DNA of 64,000 nt from Occultella glacieicola (GTDB taxonomy: Bacteria > Actinomycetota > Actinomycetes > Actinomycetales > Beutenbergiaceae): assembly GCF_004353825.1 (NCBI RefSeq), contig NZ_SMNA01000007.1, forward strand, positions 1-64,000, in the 5' to 3' direction. This document shows, one piece after another, positions 36,696 through 56,983 of the stretch. Each line of letters starts with the position of its first letter. The stretch's first letter is position 1. Position numbers and translations under genes: made by a program. A model generated the notes under the pieces. The model was not told the DNA's origin. It worked only from the letters and a program-made list of their open reading frames with translations, and did not search any database.

Positions 36696-36756
36696 GTGCT
36701 GTCCGGCACGCCGTCGACCGCTGGTGATCCGCCGGCGGCGGTGGCAGGTGCGCCCC

Positions 36757-37387: not shown

Positions 37388-38212
37388 CTACGCCGCGGTG
37401 ACCGGCGCAGGCTCCGCGTGGTCTAGGGCCCACTCCAATGCGTAGTCGGCGACCTCCTGCCAGCCCGGTTCCGCGCAGATCCAGTGCGAGCGTCCCGCGA
37501 ACTCGTGGTACTCGGTGAGGGAAGGGGACTTGGCCCAGTGCTTCGCATTGGACCTGTTCACCGAGGGCGGCATGATGTGGTCCTCGCTACCGCCGATGAA
37601 CAGCAGCGGGGAGCGTTCGATCGAGTAGTCGACCCAGGTCTCCTGCCGACCCGGCTTGAGGTTGGCGATGAGCCCGTAGGCCCACACCCAGTTGCCGGGC
37701 GCCGCGATGGCGTACTTCTCCCACACCGCGTCGGAGTCCTCCCTCGACAAGGTGTTCGCGAACGCGTAGTGGAACTCCTCCTGGGTGAACGCGACGGCCT
37801 TGTGAAAGTTGGCCGGGTTCTTCAGGGCCGGGAAGAGGGAGCGCACCTGCGACAGCGGGCTCACCCGAACTCCCTCCGTCGGGGCGGAGTCGACCACGAC
37901 GCCCGCCGCGCCGAGGCCGCGCGCGAGGAGCAACTGGGTCAGCGCGCCGCCGAAGGAGTGGCCCATGATGATGGGCGGCCGGGGCAGTGCCTCGATCTGG
38001 GCCGCGAGGTGGTCGACGGTCTCCGGAACGGTCAGGTTCGCGATGACGTCGGGGTTCTTGCGGAGCTCCTCCACCTCGATCTCGAAGCCGGGGTAGGCGG
38101 GCGTGAGCACGGTGAATCCCTTGGCTTCGAAGTGCTCCCTCCAGCCCTCCCAACTGCGGGGGGTCATCCACAAGCCGTGCACGAGCACGATGGTGTCCGG
38201 GGTGGTCGACAT
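37388..38212 (-). CDS. Alpha/beta hydrolase
   Basis: A 274-residue alpha/beta hydrolase. The oxyanion region is TIVLVHGLWMTPRSWEGW; the nucleophile elbow GHSFGGAL gives the catalytic Ser at about 105; the acid is in FIGGSEDHIMPP and the His in FAGRSHWICAE. No signal peptide. Substrate not assignable. Third gene of a minus-strand run (LuxR regulator, haloperoxidase-like hydrolase, this gene), 28 bp after the previous one. Confidence 0.85.
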   Translation of the reverse strand: MSTTPDTIVLVHGLWMTPRSWEGWREHFEAKGFTVLTPAYPGFEIEVEELRKNPDVIANLTVPETVDHLAAQIEALPRPPIIMGHSFGGALTQLLLARGLGAAGVVVDSAPTEGVRVSPLSQVRSLFPALKNPANFHKAVAFTQEEFHYAFANTLSREDSDAVWEKYAIAAPGNWVWAYGLIANLKPGRQETWVDYSIERSPLLFIGGSEDHIMPPSVNRSNAKHWAKSPSLTEYHEFAGRSHWICAEPGWQEVADYALEWALDHAEPAPVTAA

Positions 38213-38240
38213 GGTCTCTCCTTGCGTAGGGACGGGGCAG

Positions 38241-39065
38241 TCAGGCCTCGATGAAGGCCAGTAGATCCGCGTGCAGCCGATCGCGGTCGGTGTCGGGCAG
38301 GCCGTGTGCCCCGCCCTCGTAGACGGTCAACGTCGCGCCCGGGATCAGCGCGGCGGAGCGCTTTCCGCCGACCTCGAACGGGACGATCTGGTCGTCATCG
38401 CCGTGGATGACGAGGGTCGGTATGTCGACCGTGGCGAGGTCCGGACGGAAGTCGGTCGCGGAGAAGGCGGCGATGCACTCGTACGCGGCCCGATGTCCGC
38501 ATGCCATGGACTGCAGCCAGAACGCGTCGCGGATCCCTTGGGAGACGTCGTTGTTGCGGTTGTTGCCGAAGAAGGGCCCGTCGGCGAGATCCCGGTAGAG
38601 CTGGGAACGATCGGCTGCCTCGCCGGCGCGGATCCCGTCGAAGACGGCGACGGGCAGCCCTTCGGGGTTGTCGTCGCCCGCCAGCATGAGTGGCGGCACC
38701 GCCGAGACGAGAACGAGTTTCGCGACGCGCTCGGTGCCGTGTCGGCCGATGTACCGGACGATCTCCCCACCGCCGGTGGAGTGGCCGACCAGGGTGATGT
38801 CGTTCAGGTCGAGGTGATCGATGAGTCCGGCGAGGTCGTCGGCGTAGGTGTTCATCTCGTTGCCGTGCCAGGTCTGGCTGGAGCGTCCGTGTCCGCGGCG
38901 GTCGTGAGCGATCGCGCGGTGCCCGTTCTCGGCGAGGAAGCGGGCGGTGGCCTCCCAGGCGTCGGCGTTCAACGGCCAACCGTGGCTGAGGATCACCGGC
39001 GAGCCGTCGATGCCCCAGTCCTTGTAGAAGATCTGGGCACCGTCCTCGGTGGTGACGAACGGCAT
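38241..39065 (-). CDS. Alpha/beta hydrolase, non-haem chloroperoxidase-like
   Basis: A 274-residue hydrolase close to the bacterial non-haem haloperoxidase/aryl esterase group: [15 protein letters not shown] (oxyanion HGWP), nucleophile [17 protein letters not shown], acid in [13 protein letters not shown], His in [10 protein letters not shown]. These enzymes are serine esterases that can also make peracids. The ATG at 39065 gives the typical [18 protein letters not shown]. It follows the LuxR gene by 98 bp on the same strand and may be its target. Confidence 0.9.
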
Positions 39066-39163
39066 GACGGCCTCCGCGCTGGAACAGGTGAGTGCGCTCA
39101 CCCACCGTGCCCGGCCCTGGCCACGAGCGAACCACGTGTTCCTCGTAGTCTGCTTCGGTCGCG

Positions 39164-41911: not shown

Positions 41912-42080
41912 GGTACCCGTGCGACCTCCTTCCAGGGAGGCGCGGATGCTGGCTGTCGCGCCAAGAATGTCGGAGCGATGGAGCGCTTGTCGAGACCCTT
42001 CGGGTGCGGATCGGTGCGGCCACGCCTCGGCCCGACGATCGCCCGGTGGGGTTGTGCGGCGACCCGCTCGCGCAGGCGGC

Positions 42081-42135
42081 GGAAGTTTCCACCCCACCTC
42101 TCCTGGACCCTGCCCACCCCGCCTCATAGCGTCAT
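42081..42135 (+). promoter_or_regulatory. T7SS-regulon promoter motif before eccC
   Basis: GGAAGTTTCC (42081-42090), ACCCC, TCCTGG (42101-42106, one or two changes from CGCTGG), then CATAGCGTCATCGGC with TAG at 42127-42129. The TAGCGTCATCG part is identical to the 34811 copy. It lies 45 bases before the eccC start. Confidence 0.65.
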
Positions 42136-42173: not shown

Positions 42174-45100
42174 GTGTGGCGAGTGAGTGTGCGACCGAGC
42201 GCGGAGAGCAAGCTCTCCCCGGTCGACGTGGTGGTCACCGCGGACGCCGGCGGCCGGGTCGGTGACCTCGCCGCGAGCCTCGGCAGCCACCTCGGCGGCG
42301 GTGCCGGACACCTGCTGCTCGCCCCGACCACGGGTGGGCGCCCCTGGTCCGCGGACACCCCGCTGGCCCAGGCGCCGCTGCGCGACGGTGACGTCCTCGA
42401 GGTCACCTCGGTTCCGGCGGAGTGGCTCACCCGGCCCGGCCGCACCGGCGCCGCCCGCGCGGTGGTGCACGTGGTCGCCGGTCCGGACGCGGGCACCCAG
42501 ATCCCGGTCACCGGCGAGGTGGCCACGATCGGCCGCTGCGCCGACGCCACGGTTCACCTCAACGACCCCCTGGTCAGCCGCACCCACGCGCAGATCCTGC
42601 TCACCGCCACCCCCGTGGTCGTGGACCAGGGGTCCGCGCACGGCACCCGGGTGGCCGGCCGGGCCGTGAACCGGCCCCGGGCCGTGGCCTGGGGCGAGCA
42701 GATCACTGTCGGCTCCTCGGTCCTGGTGGTCCGGCCCGCACGGGCCGGGACGGGCGCCGGGGCCGACGGCGGTCGTGACCGTGGCGTGCTGCGCTCACCC
42801 CGGTTCGGGGTCGCCGTGGAGGCCCACGAGCACGAGATCCCGGCGGCACCGGCGCCGGTCCGCAAGATCCAGGTGCCATGGCCGATGATGCTCATGCCGA
42901 TGCTCATGGGCGGCGCGATGTTCGCGCTGCTGCGCAACCCGTTCTCCCTGATCTTCATGCTCGGCTTCCCGGCCATGATGGGCGTCAACTACCTCATGCA
43001 GGTCCGCGCCGCCCGCAAGGAGCACGCCGAGCAGGCCGCGATCTGGCGCGAGGAGGTCGCCGGCGTCCTCGCCCTCCTCGACGCCGCCGCCCACGCCCAG
43101 GCCGCCCACGCCGAGGAGGACGAGCCCGAGCTCGACGTGGTCCTGGCCCGGGCCACCTCCCGCGACCACCGGCTCTGGACCCGTCAGCGCGACGATTCCG
43201 ACTTCCTCACCGTGCGCGCCGGCCGCGGCCCGCGCCCCGCGCTGGTCACCGCGAAGACACCCGGTACCCAGGGGGACCGGGTGCTGCGCGCCGAGGCCAC
43301 CGCGGCGATCACCGCCCGCGCGACCCTGGCGGACCTCCCGGTCCCGGTCCCGCTGGCGCAGGCGGCCCTGACCGCCGTCGTCGGCGCGAAGGCGGACGTC
43401 GACGCCTGGGTGCGTGCCGCCGTCGTCCGTCTTGCGGTGACCCACTCCCCGAACGAGGTGCGCGTGGCCGCGGTGCTCGGCGCCGACCGCGCCCAGGTCG
43501 AGTCGTGGCTGCGGTGGCTGCCGCACGCCGCGCCGCTGGCCGGCGGTACCGCGTGCGTGAGCGTCGGCGCCGGGGACGGGCAGGGCCTGCTCGAGGAGCT
43601 CGCGGTCGCCGAGCCTGCCGGTCTGCACACCGTGCTGCTGGTCGACGGCGGTGCCCAGGTCTCCCGCCGTCTCGTCGAGGCCGTGGCCGGGGTGGCGCAG
43701 GATCCCGAGCGCCGGCTGCACCTGGTCTGGATGGGGGAGTCCCTCACCGAGGTGCCCGCCGCGACCGACCTCGCCGTGGACCTGACCACCGCCACCCTGC
43801 AGCGCGCCGGCCGCGGCGGCGTCGAGGACCTCACCCGTTGCGACGCCCTCGACCTGACCACAGCCTGGCGTGCGGCCCGGGCACTGTCCGGGTACAAGGA
43901 CGAGGCCGCAGTCGTGGCCGCGGAGTCGATGCTGCCGCAGCAGGTGCGCCTACCCGAGCTGACCGGTGACCTCGCGGACCCCGACGACGTGGAGCGGCTC
44001 ATCGAGCGGTGGGCGGCCAGCACCGGGCTGCGCGCCCAGCTCGGCACCGGCGGTGACGGCGTGATCTCGATCGACCTGCGTGAGGACGGCCCGCACGGGC
44101 TGGTCGCGGGGACCACCGGCGCCGGCAAGAGCGAGCTGCTGCAGTCCCTGATCGCCTCGCTCGCGATCAACAACCCGCCGTCCCGGATCACGTTCCTGCT
44201 GGTGGACTACAAGGGTGGCGCCGCGTTCCGCGAGTGCGCGCAGCTGCCGCACTCGGTCGGCTACATCACCGACCTCACCCCGGCCCTGGTGCAGCGGGCC
44301 CTGACCTCCCTGCACGCCGAGCTCACGGCCCGCGAGCACCTGCTCGCCACCTACGGCGCGAAGGACCTGATCGCCCTCGAGCGCAGCCACCCCGAGGCGG
44401 CGCCGCCGAGCATGCTCATCTGCGTGGACGAGTTCGCGGCCCTGCTCGCCGAGGTCCCCGAGTTCGTGGACGGGATGGTCTCGATCGCCCAACGGGGCCG
44501 GTCGCTCGGCATGCACATGCTGCTCGCCACCCAGCGTCCCGCCGGCGTGGTCACCCCGCAGATCAAGGCGAACACGGACCTGCGGATCGCGCTGCGGGTC
44601 GCCTCCCCGGACGACTCCACCGACGTGATCGACGCCCCGGACGCCGCGCACCTGTCCCGCCGCACCCCAGGCCGGGCCTGGCTGCGGCGCACCGGGCACG
44701 GCACCCGCGAGCTCGTCCAGGTCGCGTTCGTGGGCGCCCACGAGGAGCTGCACGAGCTCGGTGACGTCGTGCGGGTGGCGCCGTTCACCGCCCGGGACCT
44801 GCCCGGCGCCGACAGCTCAGATCGGGCAGGCGCCACCCGGGTGCACCCGAGCAGCGACCTCGAGCGGATCGTCGCGACCGCCGGCACCGCGTTCCTGCGC
44901 ACCGGCCGGCCCGCCCCGAAGAGGCCCTGGATCCCGCCGATCGCCGCCGAGCTCCCGATGGTGTGCACCCGCCCCGGCGAGCTCGCCCTCGGCGCCGGCG
45001 CCCGCGACGAGGCCCTCGTGGCCGGTGGTGCCACCGACGTGGTCCGCGCGCAGCAGGCACCCGGTCAGGTCATCCTCGGCATGGTGGACCGCCCCGCGCA

Positions 45101-46751
45101 GCAGTCCCAGGTCCCGTTCGTGGTGGACTACGCCCGCGCCGGGCATCTGCTCGTGTTCGGCTCCTCCGGCGCCGGCAAGACCGAGCTCCTGCGCACCCTG
45201 GCCGCCTCCGTCACCGCCGGTACCCCGGGCGGTTCCGGCGAACCGGGCAGATCGGGCAGATCGGGCAGATCGGGCACCGCGCCCGACTGCGTCTACGGCA
45301 TCGACGCCGGCGGTGGCGGGCTGACCGTCCTGGAACGGCTCGGCTCGGTCGGGTCGATCGTCGTGGAGCAGCAGCTGGAGCGGATGCTGCGACTGATCCG
45401 GATGCTGCACCGCACCGTCACCGAGCGCAACGCCGCGCTGGCCTCACGCGGGGTCGCGGACCTGGCGGCGCTCGCCGCGACCGGGGTGGACCTGCAGCGC
45501 ATCCACCTGCTCATCGACAACCTGCCCGCCGTGATGGACGCCCTCGAGGGCGGCGGTGCGGTGCGCCGTCAGCACGGCGAGCAACTCCTCACGATCCTCC
45601 AGGAGGGGCGCCGTGCCGGCGTGCACATCACCGCGACCGCCCCGCAGCGGACCGGCCTGCCGAGCCAGCTGCAGGCCGCGTTCGGGCAGCGCCTCGTGAT
45701 GCGGATGACCGTGACCGACGACTACGCGATGCTCGGCGTCCCCGCCAATGTGCTCGACGGCGAGTCCCCGGCCGGGCGGGCGCTGTCCGGCAAGGACGAG
45801 GTCCAGATCGCGACACTCGGTGGCGCCGGGACCCCGCTGCAGGGTCAGCGCCTCGACGAGCTGATGGCCGTGGTCGCGGACCGGTACTCCGGCGAACCGC
45901 CTGCCTCGGTGCCGGTGCTGCCGACCCGGCTGCCGCAGCACATCCTGCCCGCCCCGACCGCGGACGAGTTGTGCCTGGGCGCGGAGGAGAGCTTCGTGGC
46001 CCCGGTCAGCGTGCCGCTGCGGTCGGCGCCGCTGCTGATCACCGGCCGGTCCCGGTCCGGTCGCACCAGTGCCCTGCTCGGCATCGCCCAGCTCGCCCGC
46101 CGCTCGAGCGCACCGCCCACGCGGATCGTGTTCGCCGGGCCGCGCGCGCAGGCCGCCGTGGCCGTGCCGGGCGGCACGCTGTCCCCGGCCGAGGTGGCCG
46201 ACGGCGTCCTGGCCACTGCCGAGGACCTGCTCGCCTGGGTAGAGGGTGGCGGCATGAACGGCATGAACGGCATGAACGGCATGAACGGCATGAACGACCC
46301 AGCCGCGAGCAGTGCCGGTGCGCACCCCGCGGCGGCCGACCGCGCGACCACCACCATGGACGCCACGGACGACGACTGGACTCTGCTGCTGCTGGACGAC
46401 CTGCACGAGTGGGAGCGCGCCTGGGAGGCCAACGGCCCCGAGCGGCGCGCGCTCGAGGCGCTCGCCGCCCACCTGACGTCCGGGACCGGCGCACGCACCG
46501 CCGTCGTCGGGGTCGCGGACCCGGACGACGCCCGCTCGCGTCAGCACATCCCGGGCCTGATCGCCCTGCTGCGGCGCTCGCGCCGCGCTGTGCTGCTGTC
46601 CCCGGAGATGGGCGACGGGTCGTTGGTGGCGGCGCAGATCCCGATGAACAGCCACGAGCCGCTGACCGGCGCCGGTCGGGGCCTTCTCGTGAACGGCGGA
46701 TCCGCGCACGTTCTCCAATTAGTATCGGCGTCGGTGGAGGGGGCCCGGTGA
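42174..46751 (+). CDS. eccC: FHA-containing EccC/EssC-like type VII secretion ATPase
   Basis: Membrane-bound motor of a type VII system, 1525 residues. An N-terminal ubiquitin-like region (about 1-85) leads to an FHA domain (about 95-180; ATIGRCADATVHLNDPLVSR). Two membrane helices lie at about 234-280 (PMMLMPMLMGGAMFALL). Three FtsK/SpoIIIE ATPase domains follow: D1 with GTTGAGKSELLQ (about 646) and Walker B ICVDEF; D2 with GSSGAGKTELLRT (about 996) and IDNL; D3 with degenerate TGRSRSGRTS (about 1289) and LLDDL. The N-terminal FHA recalls firmicute EssC. Short repeats SGR and GMN lie in D2 and D3. Start GTG 42174; the stop overlaps the next ATG (TGATG). Confidence 0.9.
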   Translation: MWRVSVRPSAESKLSPVDVVVTADAGGRVGDLAASLGSHLGGGAGHLLLAPTTGGRPWSADTPLAQAPLRDGDVLEVTSVPAEWLTRPGRTGAARAVVHVVAGPDAGTQIPVTGEVATIGRCADATVHLNDPLVSRTHAQILLTATPVVVDQGSAHGTRVAGRAVNRPRAVAWGEQITVGSSVLVVRPARAGTGAGADGGRDRGVLRSPRFGVAVEAHEHEIPAAPAPVRKIQVPWPMMLMPMLMGGAMFALLRNPFSLIFMLGFPAMMGVNYLMQVRAARKEHAEQAAIWREEVAGVLALLDAAAHAQAAHAEEDEPELDVVLARATSRDHRLWTRQRDDSDFLTVRAGRGPRPALVTAKTPGTQGDRVLRAEATAAITARATLADLPVPVPLAQAALTAVVGAKADVDAWVRAAVVRLAVTHSPNEVRVAAVLGADRAQVESWLRWLPHAAPLAGGTACVSVGAGDGQGLLEELAVAEPAGLHTVLLVDGGAQVSRRLVEAVAGVAQDPERRLHLVWMGESLTEVPAATDLAVDLTTATLQRAGRGGVEDLTRCDALDLTTAWRAARALSGYKDEAAVVAAESMLPQQVRLPELTGDLADPDDVERLIERWAASTGLRAQLGTGGDGVISIDLREDGPHGLVAGTTGAGKSELLQSLIASLAINNPPSRITFLLVDYKGGAAFRECAQLPHSVGYITDLTPALVQRALTSLHAELTAREHLLATYGAKDLIALERSHPEAAPPSMLICVDEFAALLAEVPEFVDGMVSIAQRGRSLGMHMLLATQRPAGVVTPQIKANTDLRIALRVASPDDSTDVIDAPDAAHLSRRTPGRAWLRRTGHGTRELVQVAFVGAHEELHELGDVVRVAPFTARDLPGADSSDRAGATRVHPSSDLERIVATAGTAFLRTGRPAPKRPWIPPIAAELPMVCTRPGELALGAGARDEALVAGGATDVVRAQQAPGQVILGMVDRPAQQSQVPFVVDYARAGHLLVFGSSGAGKTELLRTLAASVTAGTPGGSGEPGRSGRSGRSGTAPDCVYGIDAGGGGLTVLERLGSVGSIVVEQQLERMLRLIRMLHRTVTERNAALASRGVADLAALAATGVDLQRIHLLIDNLPAVMDALEGGGAVRRQHGEQLLTILQEGRRAGVHITATAPQRTGLPSQLQAAFGQRLVMRMTVTDDYAMLGVPANVLDGESPAGRALSGKDEVQIATLGGAGTPLQGQRLDELMAVVADRYSGEPPASVPVLPTRLPQHILPAPTADELCLGAEESFVAPVSVPLRSAPLLITGRSRSGRTSALLGIAQLARRSSAPPTRIVFAGPRAQAAVAVPGGTLSPAEVADGVLATAEDLLAWVEGGGMNGMNGMNGMNGMNDPAASSAGAHPAAADRATTTMDATDDDWTLLLLDDLHEWERAWEANGPERRALEALAAHLTSGTGARTAVVGVADPDDARSRQHIPGLIALLRRSRRAVLLSPEMGDGSLVAAQIPMNSHEPLTGAGRGLLVNGGSAHVLQLVSASVEGAR
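45245..45275 (+). repeat. 9-bp repeat encoding SGR in eccC
   Basis: Three copies of GGGCAGATC in frame within ATPase domain 2, encoding SGRSGRSGR in a predicted surface loop. Confidence 0.75.
46251..46295 (+). repeat. 9-bp repeat encoding GMN in eccC
   Basis: Five exact copies of GGCATGAAC in frame, encoding GMN five times in ATPase domain 3 between Walker A and Walker B. The unit keeps the frame, so copy number could vary between strains. Confidence 0.9.
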
Positions 46752-49700
46752 TGGCACGGTCTGAGAAGGCGCGGAGCAGGCGCGCTCCGTTGGGCTGGTG
46801 GCGTTCACGCACCGCGGGGCGCGGCCGTGACCGCGGCTTCGTGGAGGCCGGCGTGGCCGCCGCCGGCGGGCTGCTCGTGGTCGGCGCCGTGGTCGGCAAC
46901 GGCGTGGCCGCCGCGCTGATCGACATGTCCGACGGGCAGACCTGGCTGGCCGACGACGACGGCAGGGTGGTGCAGATCAACCCGGCCACCGGCCAGCCCG
47001 AGCGACGCCTGATCATCGGCGAACCCGGCAGCGAACTCGAGGTCTCCCAGCGGGACGGGCAGCTCATCGTCACCGAGCTGACCACCGGGATGATCACGGC
47101 CGTCGACCTCGCCAGCCTGGTTGCCAGCGGGGCCCGCGGGGTGGATCCCGACACCGAGGTGCTCGTCGGCGGCGGCCAGGTGGTCCTGGTCGACCTCGAA
47201 CCGGGCACCGTCCGGGCCGTGGACCCGCTCACGCTGACCGACCTCGGCCGCCCGTTCCGCACCGACGACCTGGCCGACGCCGTGATCGACGACGAGGGGT
47301 CGGTCTGGATCATCGGCATCGACGGCACCCTCACCGAGCTCGACTACTCCGCGGATGCCGCCGAGTTCGTCACGTCCGTGTCCCGGCCGGTCGCCGGGGC
47401 GGGGCCGCAGTCCCGGTTGGTGCCGCACGCAGCCGGCGTGACCGTGTTCGCCCCGGACCAGGGGTCCGTGGTGCAGGCGGGCGCCGGGCGGGACCTCGCC
47501 GTCAGCGTCGCCGCCCTCGAGGGCACGGTCGCCGAGGCGGACTTCGCCCCTGCCGACCTGGTGCCCGCCTCCGCCGAGGACCTCGGCAGGGTGTTCCTGC
47601 TCGCGGACGGGCGGATCCTGAACGTGGACGTCGGCGCCCTCGGCTGCGAGCGGCCCGGCAGCCCGGCGGTGTTCGCCGGCAAGGTGTACGTGCCCTGCCT
47701 GGGCACCGGGCGGGTCATCGTCCTGGACTCGGGCGGTGCCCGGGCCGGGGCGGACATCGTGGTCCCCGGTGGCGGCGACCCCACGCTCGTGGTCGACGAC
47801 GGCCGGCTCTACGTGAGCACGCCGGCCGACGGCCGGATCGTGGTCGTCCAGCCGGACGGCTCCACCCAGATGGTCGACGTCGCCGCCGCCGAGGTCCCGG
47901 TCCAGGACGTGGACCGGCCCACCCCGGTGCGGCCCACGGTTCCCGTGGTGGCCCCGCCGGTGAACGTCCCGCCGAACACGCCCACGCCCCCGGTGAACAC
48001 GCCGCCCGGCGTCCCGAACCCTCCGGAGACGCCGGACGACCCGACGCCGCCGGACACCCCGGGTACCGACCCCACGAACAACCCCGGCGGAGGCGACGAC
48101 AGCGACGACGACGGCACCGGGGGCAACAGCAACGACGCCGACAAGGCGCCCTCCGGGGTGGCCGCCCAGCTGCGTGCGGACGGGACCGTGGCGCTGACCT
48201 GGACGCCGCCGGTGACCACCCCCGAGACCGTCCGGGTGACCGGCTCGGACGGCGTCACCGACCGGGAGGTCGCCCCGGATGCGACCTCACTGGACGTCCC
48301 CGGCCTGTCCTGCGGCTCGATGATCACCCTCACCGTGACCGCCACCCACGCCGACGGCAGCACCGGCGTCGGCTCGACCGAGATCCGCACGGCGGACTGC
48401 GCAACCGGGGTGAACCCGGCCGACCTGGCGCCCACCGACGTGCAGGCGTCCCTGCGCGCGGACGAGAGCGTCCGGGTCACCTGGACGGCCCCCGTCGAGA
48501 CCCCGAACGAGATCCGGGTGACGAGCTCGGACGGCACCGCCAACGAGGTGCTCGCCGCCGGCGCCACCACCGTGGACCTGGCCGGACTCACCTGTGGACG
48601 GACCCTCACGTTCACCGTGACCGCCCACCACGACGGCGGGATCAGCGGCACCGACTCGGCTACCGCGGCGACCGTCGACTGCCCGGTGGACCCTGCCGAC
48701 CTCGCCCCGACCGGGGCGAGCGCGGCCCTGCGCGCCGACGAGAGCGTGCGGGTGAGCTGGACCGCGCCCGTGGTCGCGCCGAACGACTACCGGGTCACCA
48801 GCTCCGACGGCGCCGCCAGCCAGATGGTCGCCGCGGGTGCCACGTCGGTGGACCTGCCCGGTCTCACCTGTGGCCGGACGCTGACCTTCACGATCACCGC
48901 GAACCATGAAGGCGGTCAGACCGGTCAGGCGAACGCGAGTGCCCGCACCGCCGACTGCCCGACGACGCCGCCCCCCACGGTGGAGGCGACCGCCCCCACG
49001 AACGTGACCGCGACCCTGAACGGCAACAACACCGTCACCGTGTCCTGGACCGCGGCCTCCTCCGGCGCGGACGAGTACCGGGTCTCACCGAACGGCGGCG
49101 CGGCCACGTCCGTGACGGGGACCTCCGCGACACTGACCCTGGCCTCGGGCACCTACACGTTCACCGTCACCACCCAGCTCGACGCCACCAGCGCGACCTC
49201 CGCCGCGAGCAACGCGGTGACGGTGGCGGGGGCGCCCGGGGCCCCGGGGACGCCGGCCATCGGTGGCGTCACGAACGACGGCTCCCGGGTGCAGGCCAAC
49301 GCGTCCTGGGCCGCCGCCCCCGCGAACGGTGCCGCCGTCACCTACACGGTCACCTACACCGGCGGCTCGCTCACCACGACGAACACGTCGACGCCGATCA
49401 CGATCAACTGCTCCGGTGCGAGCCCGTGCGCCGCCGGCGGCACCCTGACCGTCACCGTCACCCCGTCGAACGCGATCGGCACCGGTCCCGCGTCGTCGTC
49501 GTCCGCGTCCGTGCCCGCGCCGCCGCCCCCGCCGCCGGCGAACGGGGACTCGGTGGTCAGTCGCATCCAGTGGTCGGAGCCCGGCCTCTACGACGAGAAC
49601 ATCCCGTTCAGTGTCTGGGTCTCCGCACCCGCCGGGTGGGCCGCGCACACCGGGACCTGCACCCTGTACGTCTCCGGCCCGGGGATCAACGACTCCCGGG

Positions 49701-50131
49701 TGATCGCGTGCAACTCGGGAGGGTCCGTGTACGGGAACGCCGCCCGCGGAATGGCCACGATCACCGCCTACGTCGTGGCCACCGGCGCGGGTGTCAACGC
49801 GACCTCGGCGACGGTCAGCGAGCAGTTGCCGTCCCGGGGCGACTGGGCGCATTGCACCCTCAGCCCGCGCATCTGCACCCAGCCCAACACCTTCGACCCC
49901 GACGATCCCGACGTCGAGGTGACCCCGATCCCGTGGACCCCGCCCGAGGTGCCCAGCCCGCCCGTGCTCGCGGCCGGTTTCGGCCTGCTCGGCGCCGCCG
50001 GCCTGCTGCGCACCCAGCGCCGCCTCGCCGACGTCCCCACCCTCACGACCACGGACGGCGCCGCGCCCACCCCGGCCGCGACCGCCGTCGTCCATGAACG
50101 CCCCGACTCGACCGGAGACCAGCCCCGATGA
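46751..50131 (+). CDS. Membrane-anchored beta-propeller/fibronectin type III protein (PFNA Fn3 protein)
   Basis: A 1126-residue surface protein. A basic cytoplasmic start is followed by a membrane helix (about 32-56, GVAAAGGLLVVGAVVGNGVA). About 65-390 look like a beta-propeller (DDDGRVVQINPATGQPERRL). A Pro/Thr/Asp linker (about 395-465) leads to about five Fn3 repeats (about 466-930), the first three with paired Cys (LTCGRTLTFTVTAHHDGG). A unique domain follows (SRIQWSEPGLYDENIPFSVW), then a C-terminal hydrophobic anchor (about 1069-1087) and an Arg-rich tail. In bifidobacterial PFNA clusters the Fn3 protein is a surface, ligand-binding protein. Coupled on both sides by overlapping stop and start codons. 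Confidence 0.85.
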   Translation: MARSEKARSRRAPLGWWRSRTAGRGRDRGFVEAGVAAAGGLLVVGAVVGNGVAAALIDMSDGQTWLADDDGRVVQINPATGQPERRLIIGEPGSELEVSQRDGQLIVTELTTGMITAVDLASLVASGARGVDPDTEVLVGGGQVVLVDLEPGTVRAVDPLTLTDLGRPFRTDDLADAVIDDEGSVWIIGIDGTLTELDYSADAAEFVTSVSRPVAGAGPQSRLVPHAAGVTVFAPDQGSVVQAGAGRDLAVSVAALEGTVAEADFAPADLVPASAEDLGRVFLLADGRILNVDVGALGCERPGSPAVFAGKVYVPCLGTGRVIVLDSGGARAGADIVVPGGGDPTLVVDDGRLYVSTPADGRIVVVQPDGSTQMVDVAAAEVPVQDVDRPTPVRPTVPVVAPPVNVPPNTPTPPVNTPPGVPNPPETPDDPTPPDTPGTDPTNNPGGGDDSDDDGTGGNSNDADKAPSGVAAQLRADGTVALTWTPPVTTPETVRVTGSDGVTDREVAPDATSLDVPGLSCGSMITLTVTATHADGSTGVGSTEIRTADCATGVNPADLAPTDVQASLRADESVRVTWTAPVETPNEIRVTSSDGTANEVLAAGATTVDLAGLTCGRTLTFTVTAHHDGGISGTDSATAATVDCPVDPADLAPTGASAALRADESVRVSWTAPVVAPNDYRVTSSDGAASQMVAAGATSVDLPGLTCGRTLTFTITANHEGGQTGQANASARTADCPTTPPPTVEATAPTNVTATLNGNNTVTVSWTAASSGADEYRVSPNGGAATSVTGTSATLTLASGTYTFTVTTQLDATSATSAASNAVTVAGAPGAPGTPAIGGVTNDGSRVQANASWAAAPANGAAVTYTVTYTGGSLTTTNTSTPITINCSGASPCAAGGTLTVTVTPSNAIGTGPASSSSASVPAPPPPPPANGDSVVSRIQWSEPGLYDENIPFSVWVSAPAGWAAHTGTCTLYVSGPGINDSRVIACNSGGSVYGNAARGMATITAYVVATGAGVNATSATVSEQLPSRGDWAHCTLSPRICTQPNTFDPDDPDVEVTPIPWTPPEVPSPPVLAAGFGLLGAAGLLRTQRRLADVPTLTTTDGAAPTPAATAVVHERPDSTGDQPR

Positions 50132-51111
50132 CCGAGAACCCCCTGGCCCCCACCGAGGCGGACGTCGCCCGGTTCCGCCTGCTCCACGACCAGGTGGTCG
50201 ACGCCGTGTCCGGCGCCCTGCAGGGCAAGCGGCCGGTGATCGAGCTCGCCACCGTGTCCCTGTTCGCGGGCGGGCACGTGCTCCTCGAGGACGTCCCCGG
50301 AACTGGCAAGACCACGCTGGCCCGGGCCATCGCCGCGGCCCTCGGCGGCTCCTCCCGGCGGATCCAGTTCACCCCGGACCTGCTGCCGGCCGACGTCACC
50401 GGCACCTCCGTGTTCGAGCCCGGCACCGGCGAGATCAGTTTCCGGCCCGGTCCGGTGTTCACGAACGTGCTGCTCGCCGACGAGATCAACCGGGCCGCCG
50501 CGAAGACCCAGTCCGCGCTCCTGGAGGTGATGGCCGAGCGCACCGTCACCGTCGACGGGATCGGCCACACCGTGCCGGACCCGTTCGTGGTGATCGCCAC
50601 CCAGAACCCGATCGACCTGGACGGCACCTACCGGCTCCCGGAGGCCCAGCTCGACCGGTTCCTGGTCCGGATCACGCTCGGCTACCCCGACGTCGAGCAC
50701 GAGCTCGCCGTGCTGCGGCCGGGGTCGCGCGCCGGAGTGGTCGAGGAGGTCCCCGAGGTCACCACCCCCGAGGCCGTGGCCGCCGCGTCCCGGCAGCTGC
50801 GGCACCTGCATGTCGCCGAACCGATCCTCGCCTACATCCGCGCCGTCGGGGCAGCCACGCGCGCGGACGACCGGCTCCGGCTCGGCGCGAGCACCCGGGC
50901 CCTGCGCGGCCTGGTCGCCGCCACCCAGGTCCACGCCGCCGCCCAGGGCCGCCACTTCGTGGTCCCCAGCGACGTGCAGCGCCTCGCCGGCCCCGTGCTC
51001 GTCCACCGCCTCGTGCCGACCCGGGACGCCCTGCTCGCGGGGGAGAGCACCGAGGCCGTGGTGGCCGACGCCGTCGGCAGCGTGGAGGCGCCGCGCCCGG
51101 TGCCCGCATGA
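50128..51111 (+). CDS. MoxR-type AAA+ ATPase
   Basis: A cytosolic AAA_3 ATPase of 327 residues. Walker A is EDVPGTGKTTLARAIA (about 52-67); Walker B VLLADEINRAAAKTQSALLE (about 110-130); sensor 1 ATQNPIDLDGTYRLPEAQLDRF. The C-terminal lid (RLRLGASTRALRGLV) is typical. MoxR ATPases act as chaperones with DUF58/VWA proteins, and a DUF58 gene follows. Its ATG overlaps the Fn3 gene stop (ATGA). It is the 'AAA' of the protein kinase-Fn3-AAA set. Confidence 0.93.
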   Translation: MTENPLAPTEADVARFRLLHDQVVDAVSGALQGKRPVIELATVSLFAGGHVLLEDVPGTGKTTLARAIAAALGGSSRRIQFTPDLLPADVTGTSVFEPGTGEISFRPGPVFTNVLLADEINRAAAKTQSALLEVMAERTVTVDGIGHTVPDPFVVIATQNPIDLDGTYRLPEAQLDRFLVRITLGYPDVEHELAVLRPGSRAGVVEEVPEVTTPEAVAAASRQLRHLHVAEPILAYIRAVGAATRADDRLRLGASTRALRGLVAATQVHAAAQGRHFVVPSDVQRLAGPVLVHRLVPTRDALLAGESTEAVVADAVGSVEAPRPVPA

Positions 51112-51166
51112 GGCTGGACCAGCCGCCGGCTCCCGATCCGGTTCTCGCCCAGACCGGCCCTCCTCG

Positions 51167-51290
51167 ACCGTGCGATTCTGCGGCTCATTCGCCCGATCTG
51201 CCGCGCAATTGCACGCTCGCGACTGAGTGCTCCGGTCGCGGGTGTGGTTCTGCGGCGCACGCCGGCTATCCGCCGCGGAGTCGCACCCTC
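51167..51290. repeat. Alternating 14-bp motif array in the moxR-DUF58 gap
   Basis: Four related 14-bp motifs occur in alternating orientation: GTGCGATTCTGCGG (51170), CCGCGCAATTGCAC (51201), GTGTGGTTCTGCGG (51242), CCGCGGAGTCGCAC (51273). They form two imperfect copies of an about 45-bp hairpin-like unit in an otherwise gene-free 229-bp gap inside the operon. A similar array lies at 57045. Confidence 0.65.
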
Positions 51291-51340
51291 ACGTGCGGTG
51301 GGATGGCCGGACGGAGCCATCGCTTGCTGGGGTCGGTCCG

Positions 51341-52510
51341 GTGCGGCTGACCGGGCGGGGGTGGGCCGTGCTCATCTCGACGGCGGCGCTGCTCGGGTTC
51401 GGGCTGTGGGCGAGGTACCCGGGTCTCGTCGGGCTCGGCGCCGTCCTCGCGGTCGCCCTGGGGTGCGCGCTCGTGACCGTGCTGGTGCCCGCGCCGCTGC
51501 GGATCCGGCGACGGGTCCGCCCGCCGCGGGTGGCCAGGCTCGAGGAGGCCTCGGCGCACGTCGAGGTCACGAACGCCTCGACCTGGCTGGCGCAGTCGGT
51601 CACCGGGCACGACCTGGTGGGCGGTCGGCGGACCCCGTTCCTGGTGCCGCGGATGGCGCCCGGGGCGACCGTGAGCACCGAGGTTCCGATCCCCACCACC
51701 CACCGCGGCGTCATCGGCTTCGGTCCGCTGACCCTGCACCGGTTCTCCTTCCTCGACCTGCTCGAGGTCCGCCAGGAGCACGGGGACCGGGCCTCCGTAC
51801 TCGTCGAGCCCCGGATCCTGGACGCACTCGGCCTGCCGGCCGGGGCGCGCCGCGGGCACGTCGGCGCGGACGAGCGGATCGCCCACGGCGGCACCGACCT
51901 GGTCGGGCTGCGCGAGTACGTCGCCGGGGACGACCTGCGCCGACTGCACTGGGCCACTAGCGCGCGCCGGGCGACCCTGATGGTCCGTGAGGACGCCGAC
52001 CCCTCCGCGCCGCACCTGACCGTGCTCCTCGACGACCGTGCCGACTCGTACGCCGGTGCCCACGACGCCGCCCTCGACGGTGAGGGTTTCGAGGAGGCCG
52101 TCGACGTCGCCGCCAGCCTGCTCACCGCGGCCGCCGGCGTCGAGAGCCCGGCCCGCGTGGTCACCATCGGCGGTGGTCTCGACGAGCAGATCCCCGCGCC
52201 GGCGCCCGCGGCCGGTCCGGCCGGGCTGGACCCGCACGTGCTCGGCGCCCTCGCCCGGCTCGAACGGTCCGACGGCGGGCACGGCTCCGGCCTGTTCGCG
52301 GGCTCCCCAGACGTGCTCGCCGTGATCACCGGTCCGAACAGCGACCTCGGCGACCTGCTGCTCACGGCGTCCGGGGCGCCGTCGGGCGTCGTGCTGGTGG
52401 TGGATCCGCGGCCCGAGGCCCTCGTCTCCGCCCAGCAGGGCGTGCTGGTCCTGCGTGGCCCGCGCGCCGAGGAACTCGTCCACGGCTGGCGGACGGCGGT
52501 GGCCCGATGA
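51341..52510 (+). CDS. DUF58 membrane protein
   Basis: A 389-residue protein with two N-terminal membrane helices (about 8-52, WAVLISTAALLGFGLWARYP and VALGCALVTVLVP) and a cytosolic VWA-like DUF58 region. The signature LVGLREYVAGDDLRRLHWATSARR is at about 185-210. DUF58 proteins work with MoxR ATPases on unknown substrates. GTG 51341 gives an N terminus just before the first helix; the frame is open upstream through the repeat array. The stop overlaps the ATG of the next gene (ATGA). Confidence 0.9.
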   Translation: MRLTGRGWAVLISTAALLGFGLWARYPGLVGLGAVLAVALGCALVTVLVPAPLRIRRRVRPPRVARLEEASAHVEVTNASTWLAQSVTGHDLVGGRRTPFLVPRMAPGATVSTEVPIPTTHRGVIGFGPLTLHRFSFLDLLEVRQEHGDRASVLVEPRILDALGLPAGARRGHVGADERIAHGGTDLVGLREYVAGDDLRRLHWATSARRATLMVREDADPSAPHLTVLLDDRADSYAGAHDAALDGEGFEEAVDVAASLLTAAAGVESPARVVTIGGGLDEQIPAPAPAAGPAGLDPHVLGALARLERSDGGHGSGLFAGSPDVLAVITGPNSDLGDLLLTASGAPSGVVLVVDPRPEALVSAQQGVLVLRGPRAEELVHGWRTAVAR

Positions 52511-54915
52511 TCCGGTTCGCCACGGCCGCCTGGTCCGCGCTCGTGCTGGCGCTGGCCACGCTCCCGCTCGCCGCCGGGTACTCCTCGCCGGTCGCCGCCG
52601 GGGTCCTGATCGGCTGCGCGATCGTGCCGTTCGGCATCGCCGCCCTGGGGCGGGTGGCCAGGGTCGGGCGCGGCTGGGTGGCCGTGGCGGGCACGGTACT
52701 CGCCGTCAGCGCGGCCCTGATCCTGCTCGACGGCGTGGAGGCCGAGGCCCAGGCACAGCCCGGGTGGCGGGCCAGCCCCGCACTGAGCCTGCTCGGGCCG
52801 CTCATCGACTCCGTGCCGCGGCTCCTCACCGCGCCACGCCCGGCCCCGGCCGACGTCGGCTACCTGGTACCGACGGCGTTACTCGTCTGGATCGTCGCGC
52901 TCGGTGTGGCCGTAGTGGCGGTCGGGCGCGCCCGGGCGACCGCGGCGCCGCTCGTCGGCGCGGTGGCCCTGCTCGTCGCCGGCGGCCTCCTGACCGCCGG
53001 GCGTGGGGATGCCACCGGCTGGATCGCCCTGGCCACCGCGGTGGTGCTGCTGCTCGGCTGGGTGCTGCTGCCCTCGCAGGCGCGGGCGTCGTCGCGGGTG
53101 GGTGGGGATGCGGACCCGGGCGGGGCCGGCGGCGGGACCCGTCCCGGCCTCTCGGGAGGCGGCCCCGACGGGTCGACCGGCGCCGCGCGGCGCCGCGTGC
53201 TGGTGCCCGCGGTCGCGGCCGTGATCCTCGGGTCCTTCGCGCTCACGGCGGTGGCCGTGCCCACCTCCCGGTCCTTCGAGCCGCGCACGCTGGTGCCGCC
53301 GCCGGAGCTGCCCCTGGCCGCCACGAACCCGATCCCCAACCTGGCCCTCTGGAACGCCCGGCCGAATTTCCCGCTGCTGAGCGTCAGCCCGGACGGTGCG
53401 AGGCTGCCGGAGCGGCTCACGGTCGCCGCGCTGCCGGATTTCGACGGCGCCGCCTGGACCATCGACGCCCGGCTGCGCGCAGTCGGGGTCGTCGACGAGC
53501 CCGACCTGCAGCCCGGCACCCGGCAGCGGGAGGTCGCCTACGTGCTCGCCGACGCCGCGCTCGCCGGCGTGTGGGTGCCGTCCGCCGGGATGGCCGCGGC
53601 GGTCTCCGGAGCGGACGTGCTCATGGACACCGACACCGGCGTCCTGGTGGCCCCCGACGGGCTCGGCAGCGACCCGGTCTCGGTGCGTGCCCTGGTGGAC
53701 GCGCCAACCGACGCCGAGATCGACCGGGCCGGGACGCCGATGGCCGAGGTCGCCGCCCGGTACCTGGAACTGCCCCGGATCCCGGCGTCCCTGCGTGAGG
53801 AGTCCGTCGCGCTGACGGAGGGCACCCACTCCCGTTGGGAGCAGGCGCTCGCGATCGCCGAGGGTGTGCGGGGCGAGCGAACCCTTGACGTGGGGGCACC
53901 GTCGGGATCGTCCTACGGGCGCATCCAGGAGTTCCTCTTCCTGCCGGAGGCCGATGGCGGCCAGGTCGGCACCTCCGAGCAGTTCGCCGCGTCCTTCGCC
54001 GTGCTCGCCCGGGCGGCCGGCCTGCCCACCCGCCTCGTGATCGGCTTCGACCTCACCGAGGCCGTGGCCGCGGCGGACGGTTCGGTGACGGTCACCGGCG
54101 ACGACGCCCGCATGTGGGCCGAGGTCTACTTCGCGCGCGCCGGCTGGGTCGCGGTCGACCCGAGCCCGGCCACCAGCATCGACACCGGCGACCTCCCGGA
54201 ACCGCCGACGGGCGAGGACCAGCCGGACCGTCCCGAGGACGTCGGCGCCGAGGACGATCAGGACGCCGAGGAGAACGTGGCCGAGCCCGGTGACGACGCC
54301 GACGGCCGGACCGGAATGAGCGTGGCCACGGGCCTGACCCTGCTCGCCGGGCTGGCGTTTCTCGGGGTGCTGGCCGTGGTCGCGCTGGCCATCGCCCGCG
54401 CGGTGCGCCGGCGCCGGTGGCGCGCCGCCGGGGCGGTGGGTGCCTGGGCCCTGGTGCTCGACGCGGCCGTGCTCGCCGGCCGGCCGGTGCCGCGCTCCAG
54501 TGCCGCACCGGAGGCGGCGCGCGCGTTGGCCGGCGCTGCCGAGACCGGACATTCCGCGCCGGACCGGAGCCCGGTACGTTCGGTCTCGGCGGCCCCGGAG
54601 GATCGGGGAACGGCCGCGCTGATGCTGGCCGAGCGCGCCGAGCGCGCCGCCTTCGGACCACAGCCACGCGCGGCGGGGAGCACCGCCGTCGGGCATTCGG
54701 CCCCAATCGGAGCACCAACCGAGGCGACGTCCGACTGGGAGTTGGCCACCGCCGTCGAGCGTGACCTGCGCGCGGGTGCGAGCACGTGGCGACGCGCGGT
54801 GTGGTGGGTCTCGCCGGCCGTGCTCAGGGGCCGTAGGGCCTCCGGTCAGGACGACCGGATGCGTGGCGAAAAGGCGGACCCGGTGGGTCGCCGTGAAAGT
54901 CAGGGTGACGAATGA
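52507..54915 (+). CDS. Transglutaminase-like membrane protein (TgpA type) lacking catalytic Cys and His
   Basis: An 802-residue membrane protein with about six N-terminal helices, an extracytoplasmic region (about 260-600) and a last helix (about 604-632) before a cytosolic tail. The transglutaminase core is recognisable at GTSEQFAASFAVLARAAGLP (about 488) and DDARMWAEVYFARAGWVAVD then PSP (about 530-552). Active family members have GxCEQFA with the catalytic Cys and HAWxEVY with the His; here these are Ser and Arg-Met. The Asp of DPSP remains. So it is probably catalytically dead or altered. Coupled upstream to DUF58 and downstream to the DUF4303-like gene, each by four bases. Confidence 0.88.
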   Translation: MIRFATAAWSALVLALATLPLAAGYSSPVAAGVLIGCAIVPFGIAALGRVARVGRGWVAVAGTVLAVSAALILLDGVEAEAQAQPGWRASPALSLLGPLIDSVPRLLTAPRPAPADVGYLVPTALLVWIVALGVAVVAVGRARATAAPLVGAVALLVAGGLLTAGRGDATGWIALATAVVLLLGWVLLPSQARASSRVGGDADPGGAGGGTRPGLSGGGPDGSTGAARRRVLVPAVAAVILGSFALTAVAVPTSRSFEPRTLVPPPELPLAATNPIPNLALWNARPNFPLLSVSPDGARLPERLTVAALPDFDGAAWTIDARLRAVGVVDEPDLQPGTRQREVAYVLADAALAGVWVPSAGMAAAVSGADVLMDTDTGVLVAPDGLGSDPVSVRALVDAPTDAEIDRAGTPMAEVAARYLELPRIPASLREESVALTEGTHSRWEQALAIAEGVRGERTLDVGAPSGSSYGRIQEFLFLPEADGGQVGTSEQFAASFAVLARAAGLPTRLVIGFDLTEAVAAADGSVTVTGDDARMWAEVYFARAGWVAVDPSPATSIDTGDLPEPPTGEDQPDRPEDVGAEDDQDAEENVAEPGDDADGRTGMSVATGLTLLAGLAFLGVLAVVALAIARAVRRRRWRAAGAVGAWALVLDAAVLAGRPVPRSSAAPEAARALAGAAETGHSAPDRSPVRSVSAAPEDRGTAALMLAERAERAAFGPQPRAAGSTAVGHSAPIGAPTEATSDWELATAVERDLRAGASTWRRAVWWVSPAVLRGRRASGQDDRMRGEKADPVGRRESQGDE

Positions 54916-55505
54916 GGGATCGGGCCCAGGACGCCAGTGCCGAACTCGAGGCGTGGGTCGGAGCGTTCGGCCACACCATCGGGATCGCGCTCGAACAAGC
55001 GATCGTCGCGGTGACCAGTCGGCTGCCCGCGGGGGACATCGTCGGCGTCGGCGTCGCGACAGATGCGGACGCCACGTCGATCGTCGCGCTCGCCAACTCG
55101 CGCCAGAACCTCGACAGGATGATCGCGGAGGAGCCCCAGTTCGCGGTCGATTCCACGTGGCACCTGGGCGAGTGGGACATGGACGTGACGCAGGTCGACG
55201 CGGATGATCCCTTGGCGCCGGTGCGCGCCGAGGCAGACCGGGTGAAGCGGCTCATCACGTCTCCGGGCGACGGTCGGGCGCCCTCCCAACACCTCGGCGA
55301 GTTCCGAGCGGCTCTCTGGGACGCCATCGCGCACGCGCTGGCGCAGTCCGCGACGCACGGATTCTTCGATCGGTGGCCGAGTGCCAAGCGGGTGTTCCTG
55401 CCGCTCGATGCCGACGTCTCCGAGGAACGGATCGCCGCCTGGAACACGCCGTTCAATCGTCCCGAAGACCTGGGCGAGCTCCGGGAGTTCCTTCAGCTCG
55501 ACTAG
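54912..55505 (+). CDS. DUF4303-like protein
   Basis: A 197-residue soluble protein. DIVGVGVATDADATSIVALANS resembles the start of DUF4303 domains; STWHLGEWDM and RVFLPLDADVSEERIAAWNTPFN match its middle and C-terminal patterns. DUF4303 proteins often accompany SMI1/KNR4-type and polymorphic-toxin immunity genes, so an immunity-like role is possible. The ATG overlaps the transglutaminase-like gene stop (ATGA), although its codon use and composition are less extreme than upstream genes. In bifidobacterial PFNA clusters a PP2C phosphatase is found; none is here. Confidence 0.6.
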   Translation: MRDRAQDASAELEAWVGAFGHTIGIALEQAIVAVTSRLPAGDIVGVGVATDADATSIVALANSRQNLDRMIAEEPQFAVDSTWHLGEWDMDVTQVDADDPLAPVRAEADRVKRLITSPGDGRAPSQHLGEFRAALWDAIAHALAQSATHGFFDRWPSAKRVFLPLDADVSEERIAAWNTPFNRPEDLGELREFLQLD

Positions 55506-55576
55506 CTGTACCCGGCCGGGCGGCAGTAGCGGGTCGCGCGCGTGCCGGCCGATCCGGCGGGTTCTAGGCTGTCCGG

Positions 55577-56983
55577 GTGACCCGACTCAACGCACCCAGC
55601 GTCCCGGCCGACCCGACCTCGAAGGAACGCCTCGCCGCCCGTGGTCTCGACTACCGCACCGTCGACACCGCCGACCGCGACGCCTTCCTGAACGCGATGC
55701 AGGCCGTCACGCGCGGTTTCCTCGGACCGGAGATCACCGGCGCGGCCGTCGCCGAGGAGTCCGAGCCGACCGACGGGCGGCGCTACCTCGGCATCTTCGA
55801 CGCCGGGCTCGCGCAGCCGCAGGTGCCGGTCGCGACGATCGACTCCTGGGTCACCCCGCTGAGCGTTCCCGGCGGCGACCTGGACATGTGGGCCATCAGC
55901 GGCGTCACCGTCGCCGGCACCCACCGTGGCCGCGGGATCGCGCGGGCCATGCTCGAGGGCGAGCTCCGCGCGGCCGCCGGCGCCGGGCTCGCCATCGCCG
56001 GCCTCACGGTGACCGAGACGACGCTGTACGGGCGGTACGGTTTCGGCGCCGCCGTGCCGATGAGCACCTGGACGATCGACACCCGCCGCGCCGGATGGGC
56101 GGGGCCGGAGGTCGACGGCCGGGTCGAGTTCGTCTCCCGGGAACAGCTCGCGACCGACCTCGGCGACGTTCACGAACGGGTGCGGACGCGCCGTGGCGGC
56201 GAGATCGCGGCCTGGCCCCGGCGCTGGCGGCAGGCCGCGGGCCTGTCGACGTCGGTGAAGGACGGCGACCACGTCCGTGGCGTGCGCTACGTCGACGCCG
56301 ACGGTGAGGTCCGCGGCGCCCTCGCCTACCGGGTGATCGAGAACGAGCGCGAGTTCACCCAGTCCCGGCTGAACATCGGCGTCCTCGTCACCGAGAACCC
56401 GGACGCGGCCGCCGCCCTGTGGGGCTACGCGGTGCAGCACGCGCTCGTCGCGGAGGTCACGGCGTCCTTGCGGCCGATCGACGACCCGGTGCGGTGGCTG
56501 GTGCGGGACGAGCGCGGCGCCGTCCAGACCATCCGCGACCACGGCTGGCTGCGGATCCTGGACCTGCCGCGGGCGCTGGAGTCGCGCTCGTACGCCACTG
56601 CCGCGGACGTCACGCTGGAGGTCACCGACCCGCTCGGGCTCACCAGTGGGACCTGGCGGGTACGGATCGCGCCCGACGGCGGGGCCGAGGTGACGAGACT
56701 GCCGGCGGCGGTTGCGGTGGGTGCGGCGGGCGCTTCGGGTGCGGCGGGTGCGGGGGATGCGGGCACTTCGGGTGCGGGGGATGCAGGCGCTTCGGGTGCG
56801 CCGGGCGCGATCGCCGCGGACATCCGCCTCGGCATCGCCGAGCTGTCCGCGGCCTACCTCGGTGGTACGCCGCTGACCGGGCTGCTCGCGTCCGGCCGGA
56901 TCGCGGGCGAGCCGGCCGCCGTCGCTGCCCTCGATGCGGCGCTGCGCCCCGCCCAGCCGCCGACCCTGAGCATCTGGTACTGA
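55577..56983 (+). CDS. Eis-like GNAT N-acetyltransferase
   Basis: A 468-residue member of the Eis family with two GNAT-like domains and a C-terminal SCP2-like domain. The acetyl-CoA motif is VTVAGTHRGRGIARAMLEG (about 115-133); TETTLYGRYGFGAAVPMSTW is also conserved; the C terminus is LSIWY, consistent with the Eis C-terminal carboxylate. The SCP-like domain carries a Gly/Ala/Ser insertion of GAGDAGTSGAG-type units. Eis enzymes acetylate aminoglycosides and protein lysines; the physiological substrate is unknown. GTG start at 55577 (MTRLNAPSV). Confidence 0.85.
   Translation: MTRLNAPSVPADPTSKERLAARGLDYRTVDTADRDAFLNAMQAVTRGFLGPEITGAAVAEESEPTDGRRYLGIFDAGLAQPQVPVATIDSWVTPLSVPGGDLDMWAISGVTVAGTHRGRGIARAMLEGELRAAAGAGLAIAGLTVTETTLYGRYGFGAAVPMSTWTIDTRRAGWAGPEVDGRVEFVSREQLATDLGDVHERVRTRRGGEIAAWPRRWRQAAGLSTSVKDGDHVRGVRYVDADGEVRGALAYRVIENEREFTQSRLNIGVLVTENPDAAAALWGYAVQHALVAEVTASLRPIDDPVRWLVRDERGAVQTIRDHGWLRILDLPRALESRSYATAADVTLEVTDPLGLTSGTWRVRIAPDGGAEVTRLPAAVAVGAAGASGAAGAGDAGTSGAGDAGASGAPGAIAADIRLGIAELSAAYLGGTPLTGLLASGRIAGEPAAVAALDAALRPAQPPTLSIWY

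Follow-up and report, generated by a model that had tools for sequence, protein, structure and literature searches.

Here, we analyzed the first 64,000 nucleotides of contig NZ_SMNA01000007.1 of the actinobacterium Occultella glacieicola (assembly GCF_004353825.1; this whole stretch is called the window), with a focus on a transglutaminase-like protein that stands in an operon with genes for a large surface protein with fibronectin type III (fn3) domains, a MoxR ATPase, and a DUF58 protein. The operon begins with an EssC-like gene, the stop codon of which has one base in common with the fn3 start chosen here, and the fn3 and MoxR frames, the DUF58 and transglutaminase frames, and the transglutaminase frame and the next open reading frame (ORF) each overlap by four bases. 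We found that the catalytic triad of the transglutaminase-like protein is gone and that this paralogue of TgpA is tied to fn3 proteins and, in a considerable part of the range that was sampled, to a type VII secretion ATPase. The protein and the other members of its operon are located as follows.

52507-54915, + strand: pseudo-transglutaminase (TgpA-like) of 802 residues; open ORF, overlapping the last 4 bases of the DUF58 ORF
53812-54162, + strand: Transglut_core domain of the pseudo-transglutaminase (S490 at 53974-53976, R535 at 54109-54111, D551 at 54157-54159)
51227-52510, + strand: DUF58 protein (Pfam PF01882, 31.4 bits, cut-off 23.4); the true start may be further in
50128-51111, + strand: MoxR AAA+ ATPase (Pfam AAA_3, 201.6 bits; Walker A GTGKTT and DEIN seen by eye); 4-base overlap with the fn3 ORF
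46751-50131, + strand: large surface protein with fn3 domains (Pfam fn3) and, by eye, a hydrophobic stretch near each end
42174-46751, + strand: EssC/EccC-like type VII secretion ATPase with an N-terminal FHA domain (Pfam FHA, FtsK_SpoIIIE); start approximate

Catalytic site, predicted fold, and selection

The protein is predicted to consist of N-terminal membrane helices, an extracytoplasmic TgpA-like domain at about residues 273-559, and a C-terminal helix with a tail. Pfam Transglut_core (PF01841) matched residues 436-552 with 62 bits (cut-off 23), and residues 487-554 align to the crystal sequence of Pseudomonas aeruginosa TgpA. NCBIfam gave no match for the transglutaminase-like, DUF58, or fn3 protein of the window. 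The triad regions of intact relatives read TGFCVQFA, DAHAWPE, and FEPTP as compared to VGTSEQFA, DDARMWAE, and AVDPSP in the window protein; in this alignment, the Cys is replaced by Ser490 and the His by Arg535, while the acid is kept as Asp551. The first-pass annotation of this DNA had proposed exactly such a loss of Cys and His with the fold and the acid remaining, and our results agree with it. A sequencing accident at these two sites is ruled out because all three congeners found also read S/R/D. An intact Cys-His-Asp triad elsewhere in the protein, which that annotation had suggested looking for, was rejected, because the sole Cys (C37) lies in the second predicted membrane helix and is replaced by Val in three of the 11 orthologues, and none of the only three His (441, 682, and 730) is conserved.

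An AlphaFold2 model was made from 60 sequences, namely the window protein and 59 named relatives. Its predicted local distance difference test score, taken by blocks, was 92-95 over residues 491-550 and 70 for residues 481-490, and the whole-model predicted template modelling score of only 0.50 leaves the relative placement of the domains unsure. A helix (490-503) begins at S490, a strand (534-542) contains R535, and another strand (546-550) stops just before D551. The best match among solved structures was TgpA (PDB 6G49; Z 23.1, root-mean-square deviation 3.1, 256 aligned residues, 20% identity), with a Foldseek TMt of 0.71 for the predicted model; the TgpA fold is thus predicted to be intact.

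TgpA of P. aeruginosa (PA2873), which is reported to have a conserved triad and to act as a transglutaminase in vitro (PMC3507681), resembles the window protein in being a membrane protein with a Transglut_core and this periplasmic fold. In contrast, Cys and His are gone in the window protein, and it gave no Pfam match to the TgpA_N membrane domain (PF11992) at E 0.001; TgpA_N was matched by Pfam in the relatives L287 and L303. The fold is also shared with erythrocyte protein 4.2 (EPB42), a structural protein found among the fold matches of our model (8cs9, 7uzs, and 8csw), which differs from the window protein in being eukaryotic and in having an unrelated context. EPB42 is stated to be catalytically inactive in PMC10318531.

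We searched for orthologues at E 1e-30 across 24 genomes of the family (10 genera) and found them in 11 of these genomes and four of the genera, with a reading frame of at least 745 codons around the core in all 11. Purifying selection is retained on the pseudo-transglutaminase. The ratio of nonsynonymous to synonymous substitution (dN/dS, Nei-Gojobori method), compared over four protein regions in the six pairs formed by the window gene and its three congeners, was lowest for the core in 6/6 pairs (0.03-0.15); the membrane part gave 0.14-0.28, the remainder of the outer domain 0.16-0.28, and the tail 0.295-0.527. Five residues (E491, Q492, W537, E539, and D551) are invariant in 11/11 orthologues. 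The replaced sites are more variable, as the Cys site is Ser in eight, Gln in two, and Arg in one, and the His site is Arg in eight and Ala, Ser, and Thr in one each. The question of whether Ser/Arg is fixed in this lineage is therefore answered positively for three of the four orthologue-bearing genera and negatively for the fourth, where the Cys site reads Q, Q, and R.

Relatives with and without the catalytic Cys

The window genome has seven Transglut_core matches, five of which carry a Cys either at the site or next to it. Its intact TgpA-like paralogue (C22) stands in a MoxR-DUF58-TgpA row beside mraZ, mraW, and division genes, as judged by eye. The Cys-less pair consists of the window gene and a gene on C1, which reads A/T/F at the triad and stands behind a fn3 protein of 2036 residues. 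The seventh match (L007 1501-1749) reads GCCRDH, unlike the rest.

Relatives were drawn from the family, order, class, and phylum and from a named scan, giving 274 core matches in 276 loci; 237 relatives were counted after removal of three short matches and 34 near-identical rows. Cys-less rows made up most of the search profile, and the following counts are therefore not natural frequencies. Among the 237 relatives, 98 have the Cys, and His and D/E are also present in 98/98. The other 139 have at the Cys site S (68), D (26), G (16), E (16), A (10), Q (2), or R (1); they keep the His in 16/139 and D/E at the third site in 47/139, and all 16 that keep the His have Asp at the Cys site. The two classes also differ next to the site. 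The preceding position is Y/F in 98/98 Cys-bearing and D/T/N in 139/139 Cys-less relatives, and the two following positions are E (139/139 Cys-less vs 26/98 Cys-bearing) and Q (139/139 vs 71/98), which gives the Cys-less class a fixed motif, G-[D/T/N]-x-E-Q-[YF]-A.

A careful, unrooted tree of 69 rows was built without the triad columns and three neighbouring columns and without L042. In it, a single branch separates all its Cys-less rows (98/95; 99% of 200 bootstrap trees), and the Cys-less side consists of the window clade (6 rows, 100/99) and a PFNA-like clade (22 rows, 99/97). L042 is a Cys-bearing transglutaminase on a very long branch. Two Cys-less rows (L140 and L147) belong to other classes of the phylum. 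The loss of the Cys is old and clade-wide, and the simplest reading of the alignment and the tree would be a single old loss of the Cys, followed by repeated loss of the His and the acid, with the direction of change inferred, the tree being unrooted.

Surface-protein and type VII secretion context

The neighbourhood was counted for 161 transglutaminase rows in loci of at least 7 kb (113 Cys-less and 48 Cys-bearing). An upstream match to fn3 proteins was found in 112/113 Cys-less rows and in 0/48 Cys-bearing rows, while mraZ/mraW were nearby in 0/113 and 36/48, respectively. With near-copies removed, the fn3 neighbour is present in 105/106 Cys-less loci, including 29/29 outside the named scan. 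As Cys-less loci had supplied the fn3 proteins used as reference, the count was repeated with a profile, itself made from similar proteins, which gave 111/113 vs 0/48; L244 was missed by the profile only, unlike L068, the lone Cys-less row without a match, where the contig ends and leaves 906 bases of room. Pfam fn3 was found in 37 of 39 matched upstream proteins tested, out of 108 (C-terminal pieces, preselected by the fn3-protein match). Catalytic state and fn3 neighbourhood thus divide together in the examined loci, with one exception where the contig ends early. In addition, the Cys-less loci have their own MoxR in 108/113 rows and their own DUF58 in 111/113.

The same gene order is known from the Bifidobacterium PFNA operon. 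The named scan gave at least 594 stretches, of which 581 were confirmed and the best 80 used; one of its two patterns contains EQYA and so favours the Cys-less motif. The Cys is found in 0/80 of these loci, and 58/80 are from Bifidobacterium, where Tgm, the corresponding protein, has at the Cys site S (52), G (3), or D (3), His in 0/58, and D at the third site in 3/58. The 58 loci include B. saguini and B. aesculapii, both named in the PFNA paper as carrying the eight-gene cluster, but do not include B. longum, the species in which the operon was characterized. In B. moraviense (L108 8813-20374), the Tgm frame extends over about 3850 codons, a possible fusion or a chance open frame. The contiguous fn3-MoxR-DUF58-tgm order (46751-54915 in the window) and the absence of Cys and His are shared by the PFNA operon and the window. 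However, the PFNA operon is described as having a kinase gene (pkb2) first and prpC/fha after tgm (as also in L040), whereas in the window the kinase is downstream on the other strand, EssC is upstream, and the Asp is kept. No published statement that Tgm has lost Cys and His was found in the open-licence literature, supplements aside. The first-pass annotation had placed the window genes in the PFNA frame, which was right for fn3-MoxR-DUF58-tgm; it made no mention of the type VII-like ATPase that this operon contains.

The association with EssC extends beyond the window. L043, L044, L045, and L046, from four genera, all retain the row EssC-fn3-MoxR-DUF58-transglutaminase and the convergent kinase, and a WXG100-like gene lies upstream in the three of these loci that reach that far. 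We searched for EssC in an order sample of 119 genomes, scoring four candidates per genome, and considered 65 transglutaminase rows of known state in EssC-bearing genomes; these are fetched and hand-placed loci, not every match. An EssC-like gene lies within 20 kb of 19/30 Cys-less and 0/35 Cys-bearing rows, although rows from related genomes are not independent. All 19 linked Cys-less genes are on the same strand as EssC, and their third triad position is D or E in 18/19 and N in the other; the 11 unlinked members show D in two cases and N in one. For example, one row (G265) reads fn3/Big_9, MoxR, DUF58 (by blast), transglutaminase, RDD+FHA, PP2C, kinase, EssC, and WXG100, and in G045 a TgpA_N/Transglut_core protein (GDDEQYA) overlaps EssC by four bases, with fn3, MoxR, and DUF58 before and a WXG100-like gene after. 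In G189 (L324), from another class, EssC and WXG100-like genes lie about 13-18 kb from the Cys-less transglutaminase on the opposite strand. When 25 EssC rows were placed in a tree, the window type (5 rows) came out as sister to the main transglutaminase-linked type (16 rows, 14 with a transglutaminase), with 98 in the Shimodaira-Hasegawa-like approximate likelihood ratio test. These two sister EssC clades mirror the two Cys-less transglutaminase clades.

The type VII secretion system (T7SS) variants T7SSd and T7SSe (PMC11217815, 2024) resemble the window locus in having an FHA-bearing EssC, WXG100-like proteins, a Ser/Thr kinase, and a large Ig-like protein with hydrophobic ends. The EssC with an N-terminal FHA domain, a T7SSd feature, is present in the window, where the ATPase scored 455 bits against NCBIfam T7_EssCb_Firm, below the model cut-off of 778. 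The fn3 protein may be a counterpart of TsdI, the Ig-like protein of T7SSd, and the kinase and the two small WXG100-like proteins of the window are possible counterparts of its TsdD and TsdA. In contrast, the five T7SSd components listed in PMC11217815 include no MoxR, DUF58, or transglutaminase, and the words transglutaminase, MoxR, DUF58, fibronectin, and PFNA do not occur in its main text. In the EssC tree, to which no named TsdC reference was added, the EssC of a Bifidobacterium locus (L305) falls outside the window and main transglutaminase-linked clades. The term "type VII secretion" was not found in the PFNA papers listed by our literature search.

Around the operon, the window has the following further features.

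34438-34788, + strand: WXG100-like small protein (Pfam WXG100, 19.3 bits, below the cut-off of 27.3); relative in L044
34960-36234, + strand: possible secreted substrate with a Gly/Ser-rich second half; relative at the same place in L044
36355-36624, + strand: WXG100-like small protein (Pfam WXG100, 16.9 bits, below the cut-off of 27.3); relative in L044, L045, and L046
57171-58985, - strand: Ser/Thr protein kinase, convergent to the operon (Pfam Pkinase, 134 bits), as also in L043-L046

The catalytic motifs are kept, by eye, in MoxR (GTGKTT and DEIN) and in the kinase (HRDVKPQN and DFG), so that, of the enzymes checked, only the transglutaminase-like protein is visibly dead. MoxR also matched bpMoxR with 39.6 bits (cut-off 27), and a MoxR-vWA conflict system was considered and not adopted, as its defining vWA-beta-propeller partner was not shown. 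About 5.5 kb of other genes, mostly on the minus strand (DUF1801-like, alpha/beta hydrolase, and others), lie at 36700-42100 between the second WXG100-like gene and EssC, where the corresponding gap is about 0.2-2 kb in L044-L046. The possible substrate gave no Pfam match at E 0.01. A broken second copy of its gene start and of the preceding stretch is present (32792-33100 and 34227-35130; 193 nucleotides at 94%, 74 at 89%, and 43 at 95%), with a GAD-like/Tdi1-type immunity-like gene between the copies (33482-34042, - strand); the 32792-35130 region looks like a reshuffled substrate region of the toxin-immunity type. Downstream of the transglutaminase are DUF4303 and GNAT genes (54912-56983); among L043-L046, GNAT is found there only in the congener L046 and DUF4303 in none. 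A perfect 9-base tandem repeat of 5.2 copies (46250-46296) lies within the EssC frame and encodes Asn-Gly-Met repeats. No tRNA was found in the window.

Proposed role and alternatives

As the triad is lost in many actinobacterial relatives that stand beside surface-protein and often secretion genes, the protein is probably a structural or binding part and not an enzyme. We consider it probable that it is a conserved non-catalytic TgpA paralogue that serves an actinobacterial type VII secretion locus as a scaffold or binding module. The membrane-anchored TgpA fold would act on the outer side of the membrane as a scaffold or as a peptide- or cell-wall-binding module. The cytoplasmic MoxR-DUF58 pair may assemble or remodel it, as presumably happens for the intact TgpA beside division genes. 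The pseudo-transglutaminase could then link the membrane-borne secretion ATPase with the large fn3 protein on the outside, and the kinase and the FHA domains may regulate that assembly. Where no linked EssC was seen, as in the Bifidobacterium and Cellulomonas loci examined, the same module might assemble the fn3 surface protein alone.

Several observations weigh against this picture. In the transglutaminase family, two changes of the Cys label are required on a quick tree of 158 rows, where the long row L042 stands beside the window clade. In the EssC tree, the transglutaminase label is not clustered beyond shuffles (4 changes; 131/500 shuffles as low), L304 and L306 have an EssC of the same clade with no transglutaminase found near (a "none" that rests partly on short contigs), and the linked EssC L299 groups with the Bifidobacterium EssC (L305) and not with the main clades. 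Moreover, 11/30 Cys-less genes in EssC-bearing genomes have no EssC-like match within 20 kb, EssC was not found beside the Bifidobacterium loci examined, and both WXG100 matches of the window are below the Pfam cut-off.

The first-pass annotation had offered either a retained structural or peptide-binding role or a changed nucleophile. Low core dN/dS, the predicted fold, and the clade-wide fixed motif speak for the former. An active serine-type enzyme, in which Ser490 would work with Arg535 and Asp551, could draw on the Ser in eight of 11 orthologues, on the invariant Asp551, and on the predicted helix that begins at Ser490. However, the site is Q, Q, and R in the fourth genus and D, G, E, or A elsewhere, no Ser-bearing member has the His, and the orthologues lack both a conserved Ser and a conserved general base; with the site variable in the 11 orthologues and the 139 relatives and Ser never occurring with His, we rejected a Ser nucleophile as highly improbable. 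Some members of the clade might have residual or new chemistry, with D-H-D members using an acid or metal site and the window form one step further away; this would fit the Asp at the Cys site of all His-bearing Cys-less members and the preference for D/E at the third position of the EssC-linked ones. The window protein, however, has neither the His nor an acid at the Cys site, and this explanation, kept as a lead, is very unlikely.

A decoy, or dominant-negative copy, would draw the MoxR-DUF58 chaperone or the substrate away from intact TgpA and so act on the enzyme and not on secretion. The same genome does carry an intact MoxR-DUF58-TgpA triplet, but the dead copies mostly have a MoxR, a DUF58, and a fn3 partner of their own, and the linkage to EssC would be left unexplained, which makes a decoy unlikely. 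A decaying gene under relaxed selection would account for the lost triad and for the poorly conserved C-terminal tail. Decay was rejected on the low dN/dS of the core; the frames are also open in all orthologues of four genera and the loss is old and shared, so that this explanation is scarcely credible.

Beyond the probable scaffold or binding role, we suggest tentatively that MoxR, DUF58, and the pseudo-TgpA could form the core membrane module of an actinobacterial type VII subtype of which we found no description, and that the PFNA operon could be the same module cut loose from the ATPase. The "transglutaminase" genes of such operons, including Tgm in the 58 Bifidobacterium loci among the best 80, cannot encode Cys transglutaminases. 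If the suggested module is real, a role in secretion or surface assembly would have to take the place of the transglutaminase and signalling roles proposed for Tgm. The linkage to EssC joins the PFNA and T7SS-variant literatures and gives a testable list of parts for an actinobacterial secretion machine.

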